DNA of 43,101 nt from Melioribacteraceae bacterium. GTDB lineage: Bacteria > Bacteroidota > Ignavibacteria > Ignavibacteriales > Melioribacteraceae. Positions 24,271-36,825 of this stretch are shown piece by piece; within the stretch, counting starts at the first letter, position 1; each line of letters starts with the position of its first letter. A program made the position numbers and the translations under genes. The stretch lies in NCBI GenBank assembly GCA_022181065.1, contig BQMY01000104.1:1-43101 (forward strand), read 5' to 3'. Under the pieces are notes generated by a model, which made no database searches, was not told where the DNA came from, and saw nothing but the letters and a program-made list of their open reading frames with translations.

Positions 24271-24474
24271 CTGGTTGTTGATTTTCACGTCCCCCTTACG
24301 CCTGTGGCGCACAGGTTTGAAGGGGGAAATCACTCCGCCAGCGGCGGTTTTTGTGATGGGGGATGACCAAAAGTCATAAGAAATGCAATGAATCATCCTC
24401 CGTCTTCCGACTGATGTCGGAAGCCACCTCCTTCGAAGGAGGACTTTGTATCAAAATGACTTTGTCAACAAACT
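24271..24474. repeat. Dispersed hairpin repeat, family 1, copy 2
   Basis: The second copy of the repeat at 61-264, lying 46 bases past the aconitase stop. Its hairpins mirror copy 1: CCCCCTT/AAGGGGG, CCGCC/GGCGG, TTCCGAC/GTCGGAA (24405-24422) and CCTCC/GGAGG. The TTCCGAC stem differs from copy 1 (TTTCGAC/GTCGAAA) by matched changes on both arms, T197 to C24407 and A210 to G24420. It continues into a terminator and the direct repeat at 24446. Confidence 0.88.
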
Positions 24475-24751
24475 GAGGCTGCCAATTGGCGGCCTTTTTT
24501 TATTTGGTCGAATTGATTAGCAATGTGAAAGATATAGTATCACAAATTTATGTAACTGTGCTAAAAAGCTTAAGAAAGTAGTAGCAAAATCTTTTTCTGG
24601 AATTCGTATTAAGCCCTCTCCTATGATTAGGAGAGGTTCGCCGCGGCGAAAGGGTGAGGTAGTAAAGATCTGGATTTCCAATCTAGTTCGGCAAAATAAT
24701 ATTATCATGTCATGTCCGTGCATCAGCCGATGGCAGAGGGTATCATATTTG
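24446..24751. repeat. Direct repeat, right half of family 1, unit 1
   Basis: About 300 bases closely matching 25007-25305 (offset 561 at the left end). It contains the terminator at 24476, the CCTCTCCT/AGGAGAGG hairpin (24615-24636) and the abutting palindrome TTCGCCGCGGCGAA (24637-24650). The spacer to unit 2 (24752-24945) holds a CCCTCC/GGAGGG hairpin fragment that recurs near 34312. No gene is visible. Confidence 0.88.
24476..24501 (+). terminator. Repeat-borne terminator downstream of acn
   Basis: AGGCTGCC (24476-24483), loop AATT, GGCGGCCT (24488-24495), then seven T. The stem has one G-U pair. It is carried at the right end of repeat family 1 and is the first strong terminator after acn. 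Confidence 0.8.
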
Positions 24752-24945: not shown

Positions 24946-25305
24946 TAACCTGGTAGTTGATTTTTTGTGCCCGAACGCCAGATGAAAAAAATTCTGAAGG
25001 GGAATCTTGTAACAAAATGACTTTGTCAACAAACTGAGGCTGCCATTGTGCAGCCTTTTTTTATTTGGTCGACTTGATTAGCAATGTGAAAGGTATAGTA
25101 TCAAAAATTGATGTAACTCTGCTAAAAAGCTTAAGAAAGTAGCAACAAAACCTTTTTTTGGAATTCGTATTAAGCCCTCTCCTATGATTAGGAGAGGTTC
25201 GCCGCGGCGAAAGGGTGAGGTAGAAAAGATCTGGATTCCCAATCAAGTTCGGCATAATAATATTATCATGTCATGTCCTCGCATCAGCCGAAGTCAGAAG
25301 GTATC
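24946..25305. repeat. Family 1, internally deleted copy 3 with right-half unit 2
   Basis: The left edge, AACCTGGTAGTTGATTTT, matches the left edge of copy 2, then the hairpin-rich middle is missing and the sequence rejoins the family at about 25007. From there to 25305 it follows unit 1 closely. This shows that the family's left and right halves belong to one element of about 480 bases. The rest of 25306-25417 shows nothing beyond a short CCGGTCAAGC-like repeat scrap. Confidence 0.75.
25037..25062 (+). terminator. Repeat-borne terminator in family 1 copy 3
   Basis: AGGCTGC (25037-25043), a 6-base loop, GCAGCCT (25050-25056), then seven T. It matches the terminator at 24476 in place but has a shorter stem and a different loop. 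No plus-strand gene lies just upstream. Confidence 0.7.
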
Positions 25306-25546: not shown

Positions 25547-27325
25547 TTATTTCATTAACATCATTTTACGTGAAGATACATAATTTCCCGTCTGTAACGT
25601 GTAAATATAAACTCCTGATGTCAGATCATTCCCGTTAAAGCTGAACTGTTTTGTTCCCGCTTCTGCAAATCCATCGTGTAATACGGCAATCTGCTCACCC
25701 AGGACGTTATAGACCGATAGTTTTGCATTTCCCGATTTCGGGAGGGTGAAGGATATATTTGTTGTTGGATTGAACGGATTGGGGTAATTCTGTTCAAGGC
25801 TAAATGATGCCGGTATTTCTTCAGATGCTGCAATGGAAGTAGCTCCCGGTATTCCATAATATACTTCAAATTCGCCGCCGGTTCCGGCCGGTATTGTTAA
25901 TACACGATTGATTGCGTCAAAATTTGTGTATGCATCCCCATCAAGTTTTACTGAATCTATGATAAGCATAGCATCCTGCATGGCAAGGGGGGACATATTG
26001 ATATTCCTCTCAAAATCCAGCGCTTCATATTTGTAGAAGAGTTTTACAGGTTTCTCATGAACAAAGAGGTTCCCATATAAATAGGTATAATATCCTGTTT
26101 CAATAGAGTGATATGCAGCCTTGTAACCGTCCCCTTTGTTTTCACTCCATAGTTGATCTCCGTATCTGGTACGATCGAAATAAACTTCTCCGTAAACATG
26201 ATCAACAAAGTGCTGCATGAAAAAGTCTAAAGTTTCATCAGCCATTTTCAGATATTTTTCATCACCTGTTGTATTATACATCTGCAGACCGCCGGTAACA
26301 GCCTGTTCCATTTGCCACCAGGCTTTACCCGTATCCGCTTGACCCCACATCTGCATTTGTCCGGTCACTCTGTCATAATCTTTATAAGGACCGCCATACT
26401 CATGGTCATAACCTTTTTCAAGGACTTCATTAAAAAGTGTTTCGGCCGCTTCTATATAATCTGCATCAGGGGAGTAATAATTTATTCTCGCAAGGCACCA
26501 TCCTGTCTTAAGCACATGCCCCATAATGGAGAGTCTTTCGCTTTCATCGATGTTCCACTCTCTGTCGTAATGTTCAGGAAATCCTATTGCCTGACCTTCC
26601 ATATTGGCAATGAAATAATCAAGAATGTTGTCTGCCATTTGTTCAAGTCTGGTGAGGTATTGTTCATCTTTTGTTAACATGTACATGTATAGAAGGTGAG
26701 TGGTGATAGCGTCAACCGTTGCGTTAAAACTTTTACCGTTTTTAATTGTTGTTGTTCTGGAAACATAATCAAAATACCCGAGGTAATCGGGACGACTATC
26801 CCACAGTTTTGTTTCATTAAATTCGAGACCTTTATTCAGCCAGCTATATGAGAGGGTATCCCCGGTAACTTCGTAGTGAGTCAGAATTCCAAGAAGCGCA
26901 TAATGCGCGTCGAAGGCGGATTTGTTTCCAGCCATCTGCGGATTCCCTACTTCATCCATCACAGAAAACCAGCCGGTATATTGTTCATCCCACGCGTTAT
27001 CGTACATAAATTCCAGCGCACCCTTAGCGTATGCAAGATATTCGTCGTTTCCGGTTAATTGATAAGCTCTTGCGTAACCGTAAGCGTTTCTTGTTTGAGT
27101 GAGCATATTTTTGTCGCGACTCCAGGATTGTACATTCCCTTGTTTATCTACATTGGTATAAAACCCGCCACGGGTGTTATCATAAGCATCCAGCCAAAAT
27201 TGTGCACAGCTGTCAACGTATGGAATTGCGGTCTCGGGATTAATAAGATAACTGCTTTTAATCTGATATTGAGCATTTAGTGAGATAATTGCGGTAAGGA
27301 AAATCGGTAGCAAGAATTTTGTCAT
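25547..27325 (-). CDS. Secreted AGE-family epimerase-like protein with T9SS sorting domain
   Basis: A 592-residue protein. After a signal peptide (about 1-18, LTAIISLNAQ), residues 25-430 form an alpha/alpha barrel of the N-acylglucosamine 2-epimerase/cellobiose epimerase type: FWLDAYDNTRGGFYTNVDKQ, QTRNAYGYARAYQLTG and MGHVLKTGWCLARINYY. The His in GHVLKTGW and that in KAAYHSIETGYY sit where catalytic His residues occur in the family, though the acidic residue often found after GH-x-x is Lys here. Characterised relatives are mostly cytoplasmic, so an exported form is notable. The last 75 residues are a T9SS type A sorting domain (NYPNPFNPTTNI, ending KMMLMK). Substrate unknown. Confidence 0.85.
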   Translation of the reverse strand: MTKFLLPIFLTAIISLNAQYQIKSSYLINPETAIPYVDSCAQFWLDAYDNTRGGFYTNVDKQGNVQSWSRDKNMLTQTRNAYGYARAYQLTGNDEYLAYAKGALEFMYDNAWDEQYTGWFSVMDEVGNPQMAGNKSAFDAHYALLGILTHYEVTGDTLSYSWLNKGLEFNETKLWDSRPDYLGYFDYVSRTTTIKNGKSFNATVDAITTHLLYMYMLTKDEQYLTRLEQMADNILDYFIANMEGQAIGFPEHYDREWNIDESERLSIMGHVLKTGWCLARINYYSPDADYIEAAETLFNEVLEKGYDHEYGGPYKDYDRVTGQMQMWGQADTGKAWWQMEQAVTGGLQMYNTTGDEKYLKMADETLDFFMQHFVDHVYGEVYFDRTRYGDQLWSENKGDGYKAAYHSIETGYYTYLYGNLFVHEKPVKLFYKYEALDFERNINMSPLAMQDAMLIIDSVKLDGDAYTNFDAINRVLTIPAGTGGEFEVYYGIPGATSIAASEEIPASFSLEQNYPNPFNPTTNISFTLPKSGNAKLSVYNVLGEQIAVLHDGFAEAGTKQFSFNGNDLTSGVYIYTLQTGNYVSSRKMMLMK

Positions 27326-27586
27326 TTTTTACGTTCCGTTTGCTGAAAAAGATAAAATTTACAGGGTGAGAGAAAGAAATTCAACACCAAAAAAACTCGC
27401 AAAAGAGAAACAAAATATCGAATCAGACGAGAAGTTTGTCGGTAATTTACGTATTTACATGTAATTTTTACCGCAAATATTACCATTTGTAAAAAAATAC
27501 ATACATAAAACCGGTTTTTTACCACCAAATACAGTTGGCATTTAATTTGTGTTCTATATCACAGATAAGTTATGATGGAGGATACA

Positions 27587-27679
27587 ATGGAAGCGTTAAT
27601 AGTTTTAGCAATCACAGCAGTAATGATCTTTTTGCCGGTAGGCGTAAAATTAATGGTAGAAGAAGATATTCAAAATTAG
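27587..27679 (+). CDS. 30-residue single-span membrane microprotein
   Basis: A 30-codon ORF beginning MEALIVLAITAVMIFLPVG and ending EEDIQN. Residues 3-20 form one hydrophobic helix; the tail is short and acidic. GGAGG at 27577-27581 sits 5 bases before the ATG, an excellent ribosome site, and a 12-bp terminator stem follows 41 bases after the stop. It thus looks like a complete small transcription unit between two larger genes. The size and layout recall accessory microproteins such as KdpF or CydX, but there is no partner gene nearby and I do not recognise the family. An overlapping 76-codon frame (27535-27765) lacks a ribosome site and is rejected. The rest of 27326-27924 shows no other gene. 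Confidence 0.6.
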   Translation: MEALIVLAITAVMIFLPVGVKLMVEEDIQN

Positions 27680-27720
27680 AGAATCAAAAAAGCTTCATAG
27701 CAGTCTATAAGAATCCCGTT

Positions 27721-27763
27721 CCGGGTATGGCGCTTAGCCCCCGTCATGCCCGGGTTTTATTTT
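27721..27763 (+). terminator. Terminator after the microprotein gene
   Basis: CCGGGTATGGCG (27721-27732) pairs along its whole length, with two G-U pairs, to CGTCATGCCCGG (27742-27753) over a 9-base loop, followed by GTTTTATTTT. Confidence 0.8.
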
Positions 27764-27924
27764 AAAGAGGTCGGGAGCTAATCGCACAAAGATTTTTACA
27801 CCCTGATTATAATCTGAATAAAAATAAAATAAATTAATATATGGCATCTAAATATTTGTTTCCCCTTAATATTCTGGTTTGAAAATGTTATATTAAACTC
27901 GCTTATGGGTATAATGGGGTTTCT

Positions 27925-30018
27925 GTGAATAGAAGAAAATTTTTTATTCAAATTCTTCTCGTATTAGTATTTAACTGCGATCCAGTTATCGGTTCGGATG
28001 ATCCGGAGGAAGCGCTTTATGATGTTCTGGTTGCTGCTGATACTTCCAATTACCGTGCGCTTGAGATAGTAAAATCAGCATTAAATCACCCGGATCTTAC
28101 AGATAGTCTCCGAGCCTTGCTTACCTTTAAGCTTGCAATTTACTCTCAAAATATTGGTGACACCGAAACCGCGCAAATATATTTTGATGACGCATTCAGC
28201 ATAGCTCGACAGGAGGGGATGAAAAAAGAACTCGGTTTTTTCTATCTGAAATATGGAAATCATCTGCCGGGAATAGTTGGGCAAAATACAGCAAGTTTTG
28301 ATTTATTCCATCATGCCGCCGCGTTAGCAAGGGAAATTGATGATAAATTACTGCTTTTCAGTTCTTTTACTGATCTGTCAGATATTTTCTCGGAATATGA
28401 GGAATTTAACACTGCCAAAAAATATTTACAACAAGCCGAAACCGTCGCTCTGCAGATATCCGCCGAAAATTCAGCTAACTCCGATTCTGTAATGTGTTTA
28501 CTAAACCAAAGTTATTTTCGGCTTTACTTACGCATGAAAATGTATAACAGCGCATTTCATTTTGTGAGAAAATCGCTTGATTATGAAAAAATAGATTCCA
28601 CTGCAATGATCATCGCAACCTCTTACACTGGATTGGCAGACCTTGCGATGGCAGAGAATGATCTGGTAGCGGCAAAAAGTAATTTTTACAAATCTCTGCA
28701 GATCGCGGAAAAACATAATAATTATTCAGTTCTCTCATCGATCCTTACACGTCTTGCTTTTGTCGCAAATCTGGAAGGCGATTATCTACAGTGTCTTGAA
28801 TATAACAGAAAAGCGCTTGAGATAAGAGAAAAGTTCGGGCATAAAGCATCAATTGGGAGTTCGCTTAGCAACATCGGAGCAACTCTTATAAAACTTGAAA
28901 GATATGACGAAGCTGAAGAGTTTCTGCTGAAAGGTTTGAGCATTGGGAAGCAAATTAAGAAACCCGATTTTACCGAGTATGCGTTAACCAAACTGGTTTC
29001 ACTATTTAGAAATAAGCAGGATTATAAGTCTGCCTTTTATTATGCAGATGCGTTGAGTTCTTTCAGAGACAGCTTGCAGGCAAACGCGACTCACGCCGGA
29101 TTGATAAAATCAGTTGCCGCGGAATCATTGCACGAAAAACAGGCGGAAATAGCAAAACTGAATGAAATCAACTCGAGAACCAAAGAACAGTACACGATGG
29201 GGATCGTAATTTTACTGATGCTGCTTGTTACCGGTGGAGCGACTTTCCTGAGTTATAAAAACAAAAAAATAGCAGATGAAAACAGACTTGCCAGAGAAGA
29301 ATATCAGAAAGCAGATAAACTTAAAACTCAGTTTCTTGCGCAGATGTCACATGAAATAAGGACACCACTAAACTCAATTTCAAATTTTTCATCACTACTG
29401 ATCGATCAGTTGAAAGGAATTAAATCTGAGGAAGTGAAAGAGACGATTGAAATAATCGATTCTGAAATTCGTCGTCTTATTCGTACGATGAGTTTACTAC
29501 TTGATATGGCTCAGGTTGAGAGCGATAATTATACTCCTATCGTGTCAGATTTTAATCTGAAAACTTCCATTATAGACCCTGTTGTTGCTGAATATAAGTC
29601 TCAGTTAGCTGAGAATAGTATTGAGCTTTTTGTATTACATAATGTAAATGAGCCCAAAATTATCGGGGATAACTACAGTATTGATCAGATATTTCGCAAC
29701 ATTTTTGATAACGCGGTCAAGTTTACTAAAAATGGGCGGGTTGAAATTCTTGTAAACCGTGATATTGGTAATGTTGTAGAACTGAAAATAATTGATACCG
29801 GTATCGGGATGTCAGAAGAATATATGAGCAAATTATTCGAGCCTTTCTCGCAGGAAGAGGAAGGTTATACACGAAGTTATGAAGGAAACGGACTCGGACT
29901 TGCACTCGTAAAGCGTTTTTGTCAGATAAATGGAATCGATATTTTCATTGAAAGCAGTAAAAACGAAGGTACGACAGTTACCCTGCGTTTCAAATCGGTT
30001 GAAAACAATTTGTCTTGA
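27925..30018 (+). CDS. TPR-containing sensor histidine kinase
   Basis: A 697-residue kinase. An N-terminal signal (about 1-23) leads to an exported sensor of TPR helices, about 60-390 (for example AKKYLQQAETVALQ, NIGATLIKLERYDEAEEFLL). One TM helix follows at about 426-443 (IVILLMLLVTGGATFLSY), then a short coiled linker. HisKA has H476 in FLAQMSHEIRTPLNSI. The ATPase domain has DNAVKFTKNG, DTGIGM and GNGLGLALVKRF. There is no receiver domain and no partner regulator nearby, so it is an orphan. The start is GTG 27925; upstream ATGs run into a stop. The TonB receptor and a secreted protein follow on the same strand, which may form a sensing and uptake unit. Confidence 0.93.
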   Translation: MNRRKFFIQILLVLVFNCDPVIGSDDPEEALYDVLVAADTSNYRALEIVKSALNHPDLTDSLRALLTFKLAIYSQNIGDTETAQIYFDDAFSIARQEGMKKELGFFYLKYGNHLPGIVGQNTASFDLFHHAAALAREIDDKLLLFSSFTDLSDIFSEYEEFNTAKKYLQQAETVALQISAENSANSDSVMCLLNQSYFRLYLRMKMYNSAFHFVRKSLDYEKIDSTAMIIATSYTGLADLAMAENDLVAAKSNFYKSLQIAEKHNNYSVLSSILTRLAFVANLEGDYLQCLEYNRKALEIREKFGHKASIGSSLSNIGATLIKLERYDEAEEFLLKGLSIGKQIKKPDFTEYALTKLVSLFRNKQDYKSAFYYADALSSFRDSLQANATHAGLIKSVAAESLHEKQAEIAKLNEINSRTKEQYTMGIVILLMLLVTGGATFLSYKNKKIADENRLAREEYQKADKLKTQFLAQMSHEIRTPLNSISNFSSLLIDQLKGIKSEEVKETIEIIDSEIRRLIRTMSLLLDMAQVESDNYTPIVSDFNLKTSIIDPVVAEYKSQLAENSIELFVLHNVNEPKIIGDNYSIDQIFRNIFDNAVKFTKNGRVEILVNRDIGNVVELKIIDTGIGMSEEYMSKLFEPFSQEEEGYTRSYEGNGLGLALVKRFCQINGIDIFIESSKNEGTTVTLRFKSVENNLS

Positions 30019-34698: not shown

Positions 34699-36825
34699 CT
34701 ACTTAATCAAAATCATCTTTCGTGTTTCTATGTTTTTGCCTGCCTGAATACGATAGAAATATATTCCGCTCGGGAGATTCTCCCCGTTAAATTTAATAGA
34801 GTGTTCGCCGGCTTCCAGCACTTTATTCAACGGTTGTGAAACCCGCTCTCCCAACATATTATAGACTGTTACCAATACACTGTTTGCAACAGGATTATAA
34901 AACCTTATCGTTGTTTCCGGGTTAAAAGGATTGGGGTAATTTTGATAAATTGTGAAATTATGCAGTGCCGAAACATCTTGCGTTTGTTCTTCTTCAAGTC
35001 CGACAGTAATAAATCCAATATCTTTGTTTTGATACACTTTTTTGTTAGTATAATCGAAAGCATACATACCACCGTTGGAATCAGGTACAAGTTCATCAAT
35101 CTCATCAAAGAATGGGTATTCAATTTCATTCCAGGAATAACCTCCATTCATAGTTTCCATCAATTTTTTATCAGACCGTGCTAATAACCCGAATCCGGTT
35201 GGGTCTATTTCCAGGTCTCTACAATAAACATTTGTAAAGTTAAAAGTTTGAGTCCAGTTTTCACCTGAGTCTTCTGTAATCATTCCAAAAGCATGAAATG
35301 AAGACATACCATTCCATTCTACACCTGTGACCATGGCACTGGAACTGTTTATAATGGTATGGTTAGTTGTCTGCCCTTGATGAAAAAGTTCAAAGTTCCA
35401 ATTCTGTCCCGCATCTGTGGTTCGAACCACACCGAATTGATGGCTAAATATAAATCCAACCGAATCACTAATAAAAAACATATCAGAAGGCATAATGCCG
35501 GATGATATTAGATTTTGATAAGGTTTTGATTCCCAGGTCTCACCTTTGTCAGTACTTATATAAACCTCAGTGTCGCTTGCAATATAGCCCATGTTGTCAT
35601 TATAAAAATACAAATAAACGATATTTCCAAACGTACCAATATTAGTCCAGTTCAACCCTCTGTCATAAGTTTTGTATAATAAAGAATTAATCAGTAGCAA
35701 CCCTTCATCAAGATTAAAAAAGTGTCCCTGATACTCCTCGTAAATGCTATTTTTACTTGGAAGTTCTTCCCAACTCTGACCACCATTAATCGTGTAAAAT
35801 GATTGTGAGCCAAAAACAAATCCGGTATCTGCATTGAAGATTTGGCAATCCCTGAAAGGACCGTTATCACCGAAACTTAGTTGATGGTAACTCGTTGAAT
35901 TTTGTCCTCCGGCAACAAACATATTTGAACCAAATACCATGAACTGAATATTACATTCCGGATAATAATTTGCACCATAAATCTCTCCAAGCGCTGGAAT
36001 TGTTTCGGTCTGGATACTGGTATTATTTAATCTTACACATTCATGTGATGCCTTGTAAAACGCTGCAATTCCATTGAAGGATTGGTAAGCTACTTCTATA
36101 TAACCGATATCTGATTCAGGCACCAAAGCCTCTAATACCCAAGATTCGCCGTAATCTGTGGTCTTATATCCTTTTTTAGTGCAGAGGTAGCCTACACCAT
36201 CAACGGCTATTTCCACATCATTAATACATCCGTCTATTCCGGCATCTATTTCTCTCCATGACACATCAGATTGAGGTGAGATGTAAATCTGACCCTTAGC
36301 ACCAACTATAATCATGTTACCATTATCCAGAAGCTGAAATGCGTGAAGGGAGTCGTTCGATAAAGTATCAATTTGCCAATTTATCCCTCCGTCAGCAGAT
36401 TGGGCAAACAACCCATCATATGTGTAGAAGTACCCGATTTGAGGTGAAATAAAATTTAGTCCCCTTATATTAAATTCTTGTGGTAAACTTATTTCACTAA
36501 AGGTTTGTGCAGTATCCGTTGAACGTGCGAGAAAGTTTCTTCCACCTAACCAGACATATTGTTCTTCGTATACTTCAATAGAAAATATATCTGCATCAGT
36601 TTCCAGATTAACTACTTCAGTATGAATAAAATTATATCCGGGATATCCAATAAAACAAGTTCCATCATCACCTGCAATGAGCACGCGTTCAGCGTAATTT
36701 TCTGTGAGGAAATATGAAATATCATTAATTGCTGGTGCAGTAATTTCCGGAGATACATCCACCCATTGCGCCGATATGAAACTATATAAAGCCAAAAACA
36801 GAAATATTACTTTCAGATTGATCAT
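34699..36825 (-). CDS. Secreted Asp-box beta-propeller protein with T9SS sorting domain
   Basis: A 708-residue exported protein. The signal peptide is about 1-19 (LFLALYSFISAQ). The body carries at least eight Asp-box (BNR) motifs of the S/T-x-D-x-G-x-x-W kind, for example TTDYGESW, TYDRGLNW, STDKGETW, TTDAGQNW and TMNGGYSW, which mark beta-propeller blades as in sialidases and YCF48-like proteins. Catalytic sialidase residues (arginine triad, FRIP) are not apparent, so binding is likelier than catalysis. The final 80 residues are a T9SS type A sorting domain (NYPNPFNPETTI, ending RKMILIK). The gene is flanked downstream by hairpin repeats, with no obvious own terminator. Confidence 0.9.
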   Translation of the reverse strand: MINLKVIFLFLALYSFISAQWVDVSPEITAPAINDISYFLTENYAERVLIAGDDGTCFIGYPGYNFIHTEVVNLETDADIFSIEVYEEQYVWLGGRNFLARSTDTAQTFSEISLPQEFNIRGLNFISPQIGYFYTYDGLFAQSADGGINWQIDTLSNDSLHAFQLLDNGNMIIVGAKGQIYISPQSDVSWREIDAGIDGCINDVEIAVDGVGYLCTKKGYKTTDYGESWVLEALVPESDIGYIEVAYQSFNGIAAFYKASHECVRLNNTSIQTETIPALGEIYGANYYPECNIQFMVFGSNMFVAGGQNSTSYHQLSFGDNGPFRDCQIFNADTGFVFGSQSFYTINGGQSWEELPSKNSIYEEYQGHFFNLDEGLLLINSLLYKTYDRGLNWTNIGTFGNIVYLYFYNDNMGYIASDTEVYISTDKGETWESKPYQNLISSGIMPSDMFFISDSVGFIFSHQFGVVRTTDAGQNWNFELFHQGQTTNHTIINSSSAMVTGVEWNGMSSFHAFGMITEDSGENWTQTFNFTNVYCRDLEIDPTGFGLLARSDKKLMETMNGGYSWNEIEYPFFDEIDELVPDSNGGMYAFDYTNKKVYQNKDIGFITVGLEEEQTQDVSALHNFTIYQNYPNPFNPETTIRFYNPVANSVLVTVYNMLGERVSQPLNKVLEAGEHSIKFNGENLPSGIYFYRIQAGKNIETRKMILIK

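Follow-up and report, generated by a model that had tools for sequence, protein, structure and literature searches.

Between the genes of a GlcNAc-2-epimerase-like protein and a TPR histidine kinase, the window (the whole stretch of 43,101 nucleotides analyzed here) carries a Shine-Dalgarno (SD) motif, a short hydrophobic frame and a terminator hairpin in this order. Genes this small fall below the usual gene-calling limits, and the locus raises the question whether positions 27577-27763 are a gene and, if so, what the product would do. We argue that the feature is probably a gene. The explanation that we tentatively favor is a real, monocistronic and lineage-restricted gene for a 30-residue membrane microprotein, which would modulate a larger membrane protein encoded elsewhere.

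Anatomy of the unit

The unit and its surroundings comprise the following features:

25547-27325, minus strand: GlcNAc-2-epimerase-like protein with a C-terminal secretion domain (Por_Secre_tail), the divergent neighbor
27548-27563, no strand assigned: candidate palindrome of the CRP/FNR-family type, TGTGTTCTATATCACA, agreeing in 9 of 10 bases with TGTGA-N6-TCACA
27577-27581, plus strand: Shine-Dalgarno motif GGAGG, 5 bases 5' of the ATG (spacer ATACA)
27587-27679, plus strand: 30-codon frame from ATG (27587-27589) to TAG (27677-27679), with a predicted single transmembrane helix, Pro17 and the acidic tail EEDIQN
27720-27763, plus strand: intrinsic terminator with a 13-bp stem (27720-27754), a 9-nt C-rich loop CTTAGCCCC and the tail TTTTATTTT
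27925-30018, plus strand: TPR histidine kinase, the downstream neighbor

First, we focus on the frame. The initial annotation had described GGAGG placed 5 bases before an ATG that opens a 30-codon hydrophobic frame with an EEDIQN tail, and the sequence confirms this description. The frame translates to MEALIVLAITAVMIFLPVGVKLMVEEDIQN and stays open in the 5' direction up to an ATG at 27572, a possible longer start that would give 35 aa; of the two candidate starts, only the ATG at 27587 has an SD motif at normal spacing. The predicted structure of the microprotein is one helix spanning residues 2-29 with Pro17 in its middle (mean pLDDT 95.6, a value that any hydrophobic helix would score). Four residues are acidic, and one lysine is the sole basic residue.

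A strong terminator had likewise been described behind the frame. Its strength holds for the isolated segment 27708-27763 (56 bases), which folds at -21.3 kcal/mol with a z-score of -2.9 and is equaled in stability by 1 of 200 shuffles; the stem, given as 12 bp, comprises 13 pairs. The tail TTTTATTTT lies directly 3' of the hairpin and runs to 27763. A stock terminator scan does not list the hairpin 27720-27754, probably because its 9-base loop exceeds the limit of 8 set by the tool.

Chance expectation and coding composition

How often such an arrangement arises by chance was calibrated on 403,101 bases from this genome, namely the window and 18 of 20 stretches of 20 kb; the other two (L093 and L094) duplicate the window and were left out. 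ORFs of at least 100 aa, picked greedily, cover 91% of this sample, and the intergenic DNA amounts to 33.3 kb in 132 segments. A 5-base SD motif precedes 49 of 269 complete ORFs of at least 150 aa vs. 4 of 269 internal ATGs of the same ORFs; with 4-base forms included, the counts are 97 and 11. This enrichment at ORF starts indicates that SD sites are used in this genome. The real intergenic DNA contains 28 strong terminators vs. 0.2 per shuffled set (20 sets). SD sites and intrinsic terminators are both in real use here.

Within the 33.3 kb of intergenic DNA, only two ATG frames of 20-60 aa carry a 5-base SD motif, and the microprotein frame is the sole hydrophobic one in the 403-kb sample. 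Dinucleotide shuffles of the intergenic DNA (n = 1500) contain on average 3.2 SD frames of this length per set, of which 0.049 per set reach a hydropathy of at least 2.0 and 0.021 a hydropathy of at least 2.2, while a single frame across all 1500 sets reaches at least 2.7 (the microprotein scores 2.73); as the thresholds were chosen after the case had been seen, these figures are guides and not exact probabilities. At the level of anatomy, there is good support for a microprotein gene that stands alone and has a ribosome site and a terminator of its own: the elements are in the correct order, and such a frame is rare in shuffled DNA.

Codon usage adds little to this picture. Combined amino-acid and codon log-odds give +5.9 bits in frame, compared with -1.0 and -1.2 in the shifted frames. 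The score from synonymous choices alone is -1.27 bits, a value reached or exceeded by 91% of simulated coding frames (mean +1.97) and by 37% of background frames (mean -2.14). Because the synonymous score is unsupportive, the +5.9-bit signal comes from the amino-acid content. On 29 codons the synonymous test decides nothing and leans slightly toward background.

These codons, together with the lack of homologs in the relatives, class, family and phylum sets described below, are consistent with a chance or newborn hydrophobic SD frame in intergenic DNA that serves no selected function. The rarity of such frames in shuffles and the ordered succession of SD motif, frame and terminator argue against this reading, which we consider rather unlikely. 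The terminator bears on a second alternative, since 11 of the 28 strong terminators, including that of the microprotein, do not lie within 150 nt past the stop of an ORF of at least 100 aa. A terminator that belongs to no such ORF would suit a regulatory small RNA that ends near 27763 and is not translated, with the frame as an incidental passenger. A correctly spaced GGAGG and an uninterrupted, very hydrophobic frame would then have to be coincidences, and we regard this small RNA as improbable.

Control signals, neighboring genes and the terminator loop

The 16-base palindrome TGTGTTCTATATCACA ends 13 bp before the ribosome site. The motif wTGTGAnnnnnnTCACAw is given as the consensus of candidate HcpR sites in Desulfovibrio and likened to the E. 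coli CRP consensus (PMC1274295). The palindrome at 27548-27563 matches this Desulfovibrio candidate consensus in 9 of the 10 TGTGA/TCACA bases. Genome-wide, TGTGWN6TCACA occurs at nine places (15 strand hits vs. 7 strand hits for the reversed control pattern). Of the nine, seven are outside every ORF of at least 90 aa, one is covered by no ORF except one that runs antisense to a larger ORF, and the last is inside a 282-aa ORF, an intergenic preference counted over the genome without a matched control. The looser TGTGN8CACA occurs once in intergenic and twice in coding DNA of the 403-kb sample and is not clearly above other spacings. Perfect TGTGA-N6-TCACA palindromes are present elsewhere in the genome (L084, L085, L089, L090, L091, and L092, each at 1501-1516); one of them presumably precedes a MoaA-like gene, and another a cation-ATPase-like gene.

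An RNA translated from the GGAGG site must begin before 27577, which places the center of the palindrome at most ~21 bases before the start. Usual activating positions lie farther out and this distance is too short, so that a factor bound here would more likely repress the unit or control the divergent gene. Promoter signals are less informative. A promoter scan is at chance level (8 found vs. 8.2 expected in shuffles). Upstream of genes in the sample, the Bacteroidetes-like pattern (7 vs. 1.9 expected) and the sigma-70-like pattern (25 vs. 15.1 expected) are mildly enriched, and TATAAT alone is not. Separately, intergenic TAAAC-N16-CGATAAT motifs recur at L101:3742, 3837, 5309, 8393, and 11143; we take them to resemble the flagellar sigma-28 promoter consensus.

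The initial annotation saw no obvious partner among the neighbors, and we concur: the epimerase-like protein, the kinase and another downstream protein that carries a TonB-receptor plug domain offer no clear candidate. Among the matches of the kinase listed from 57 other genomes, none is full length and the best has 47% identity over the catalytic part. The N-terminal part of the kinase has a sole related contig in a public collection (L071, an uncultured member of the Ignavibacteria, at 28% identity), which, taken with the Por_Secre_tail domains, hints weakly at the affiliation of the window.

With the kinase next in line, the succession of SD motif, short frame, terminator and gene also resembles that of an attenuator, in which the 30 codons would be a leader peptide of the kinase. 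The best fold of 27560-27775 lacks the terminator hairpin; the right part of the terminator is instead paired to the SD region and to bases past 27763, as an alternative structure might. However, this fold draws on bases 3' of the termination site; the unit cut at 27763 retains the hairpin. Moreover, the frame contains no run of one regulatory codon, and 161 bases extend from the T run of the terminator to the start codon of the kinase. The terminator sits between the two units and separates them, and attenuation is most unlikely.

The C-rich loop invites a further alternative, in which one transcript under CRP-type control both encodes the microprotein and regulates mRNAs through the loop. 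The elements of such a dual-function RNA, a terminator of its own and a coding frame, are both present as predicted elements. CTTAGCCCC is the only one of the 28 terminator loops to contain CCC and is also the longest. A 16-nt segment made of 2 nt of the left arm, the loop and 5 nt of the right arm pairs with the SD region of the unit itself at -14.0 kcal/mol, and of the 302 start regions sampled, which are those of longest ORFs and not mapped starts, 5 reach or beat this value. In VcdRP of Vibrio cholerae, a 29-aa protein, a pairing stretch of four cytosines and repression by CRP come together (PMC8672173), and the candidate unit shares with it the small protein, the C-rich stretch and the possible CRP-type control. 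VcdP differs in that it binds an enzyme, citrate synthase (PMC8672173), and the pairing proposed for our loop is putative and weak: the 9-nt loop alone reaches -3.3 kcal/mol against its own SD region, and 168 of the 302 start regions are as good or better. Hence the pairing at -14.0 kcal/mol would be available only with the terminator stem opened. The fold of the whole unit (27560-27775) is ordinary, with a z-score of -0.18 and 85 of 200 shuffles equally stable. In addition, the VcdRP parallel concerns one sequence chosen after inspection, with neither a target nor conservation to back it. We consider a dual-function transcript improbable. Still less probable is its most specific form, a lineage-specific RNA under CRP/FNR-type control that would encode the membrane microprotein and pair by its loop with the SD regions of other mRNAs. 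If true, coding and pairing functions would be combined within about 200 nucleotides; among the literature matches listed, none describes a dual-function RNA in this bacterial group.

The window and the genome also hold repeats. A dispersed repeat with CTTCAAACCTGTGCNCCTCAGGCG occurs on the minus strand at 89-112 and, with one mismatch, at 24299-24322 of the window, and further copies are found at L104:4284-4307, L108:11794-11817, and L110:17848-17871. Four copies are flanked by CCTCC/GGAGG or CCCCC/GGGGG arms and two lie close before a terminator; the repeat is possibly a small mobile element. A 300-base direct repeat (24435-24734 and 24996-25295; 91% identity, 561 bases apart) carries a terminator-like hairpin in each copy, and between 33835 and 37597 several direct-repeat families (70-225 bases, 68-96% identity) flank the gene at 34699-36825 on both sides.

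Relatives and known membrane microproteins

The initial annotation looked to conservation of the frame in relatives, and here tblastn detected no copy in more distant relatives. The microprotein is present once in its own genome, where a search with it returns only itself. Searches covered 58 genomes of relatives (E limit 10), 391 of the class (0.5), 79 of the family (1) and 395 of the phylum (0.1), sets that overlap and each include the source genome; the other 78 family genomes all belong to genera different from that of the source. Outside its own genome, no match in these sets is better than E = 0.18, a result to be read with the weakness of BLAST on 30 residues, by which distant homologs may be missed. 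At the DNA level, the 79 family genomes give, outside the source genome, only matches of 25-42 bases. Pfam returns no family up to E = 1, where short profiles can miss divergent members, and NCBIfam, PDB chains and a plasmid tblastn return no match up to E = 10. A phage tblastn lists five records at E = 8, and the 18-residue match to PHROG 6436 (E = 0.073) was put down to hydrophobicity and rejected.

Eleven weak tblastn loci from the relatives and class sets (E 0.18 to 1.4) were inspected individually. Five are same-frame parts of larger ORFs and not homologs: L002, L005, L066, and L068 fall in what we take to be an FtsX-like permease, an FtsL-like protein, a transport permease and a cyclase, respectively, and L069 presumably matches the signal region of a 317-aa ORF. 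L003, L004, L065, and L070 are antisense to larger ORFs, and L006 lies in a different frame inside a 636-aa ORF; these were rejected as well. Least easily dismissed is L067, from another family of the class, where a 31-codon hydrophobic frame MQIVLLISVIMLFLEAGAEIIIRGDYHNQHQ begins with an ATG (position 178 in the reversed locus; minus strand, near a contig end) and shows 37% identity over 27 residues (E = 0.216). It has no SD motif and overlaps another open frame, and at this E value we take the resemblance as probably due to chance.

Synteny leads to the same outcome. The epimerase-like neighbor has orthologue-like matches in 13 relatives, 12 of them with usable upstream DNA. In none of these 12 was the microprotein frame found upstream of the orthologue, nor TGTGN8CACA within 600 bases upstream. 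In three of the 12 (L049, L056, and L057), different short hydrophobic frames follow a 4-base SD motif, and all of these frames overlap larger ORFs.

Among known membrane microproteins, the initial annotation had named KdpF and CydX. The likeness holds for size and the single helix, and fails for both on family profile and gene context. KdpF has about 30 aa and one helix. A kdpA/kdpB context is not found for the microprotein, Pfam gives no match, and KdpA itself has no match in the source genome in a search that recovers it from 5 of the 14 named control genomes. CydX, CydY and CydZ are similar in size and single helix and are encoded with cydAB, whereas the microprotein (contig C104) lies on a different contig from cydA (C88, 15043-16416). 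The ORF after cydA is presumably cydB-like, and no CydX-like frame was found behind it; the next ORF begins 60 bases on. The CydX family profile does not match the microprotein either (Pfam up to E = 1, NCBIfam up to E = 10). CydX is described as restricted to alpha-, beta- and gammaproteobacteria, with a few orphan genes (PMC4325964).

A comparable size and single helix are also features of type I toxins, to which the microprotein corresponds in this respect. A toxin-like membrane peptide of this type would depolarize the cell when derepressed. It is hard to reconcile with the missing Pfam match up to E = 1, the acidic character of the peptide (four acidic residues, one basic) and its single copy, and no Rfam family reaches its gathering score at the locus. 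Across the whole window a tRNA alone reaches that score, novel antisense RNAs being of a kind that would not show, and 27326-27924 holds three chance-level matches up to E = 10. We regard a toxin as quite improbable.

CcoM, presumably part of the cbb3 oxidase, is likewise very small, and differs in giving no sequence match in the PDB search. In Pseudomonas stutzeri, this 36-aa protein is reported as a very small subunit of a larger complex (PMC10433244). By the searches made, the microprotein appears to fall outside the AcrZ, KdpF and CydX families. AcrZ of E. coli, the partner of AcrB, is encoded by a standalone gene and is longer than 30 residues. It has a single helix with a central proline (P16), and the candidate gene here would likewise stand alone and encode a predicted single helix with Pro17 in its middle; a sequence relation was not detected (PDB chains up to E = 10, Pfam up to E = 1). 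For AcrZ, a bend around P16 and general hydrophobicity, not particular contacts, are reported to matter for AcrB binding (PMC7267776). By analogy, AcrZ may serve as the closest working model.

In the preferred reading of a standalone microprotein gene, a short transcript with its end near 27763 would be translated from the GGAGG site, and a CRP/FNR-type regulator bound at 27548-27563 may repress the unit. Inserted as a single helix that may bend at Pro17, the peptide would place its acidic tail at a membrane face. In this position it would pack on a larger membrane protein encoded elsewhere and tune its activity or stability in the fashion of AcrZ on AcrB. Large catalogs of small membrane proteins exist (PMC11364881), and among the matches listed for small proteins in Ignavibacteria no paper names this group. 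Small membrane proteins specific to one lineage are of an ordinary kind, and a gene for one changes no general idea. To our knowledge, standalone membrane microproteins have been little studied outside model bacteria. If real, the gene would provide one testable case among them: a 30-residue peptide with a defined start, stop and terminator.
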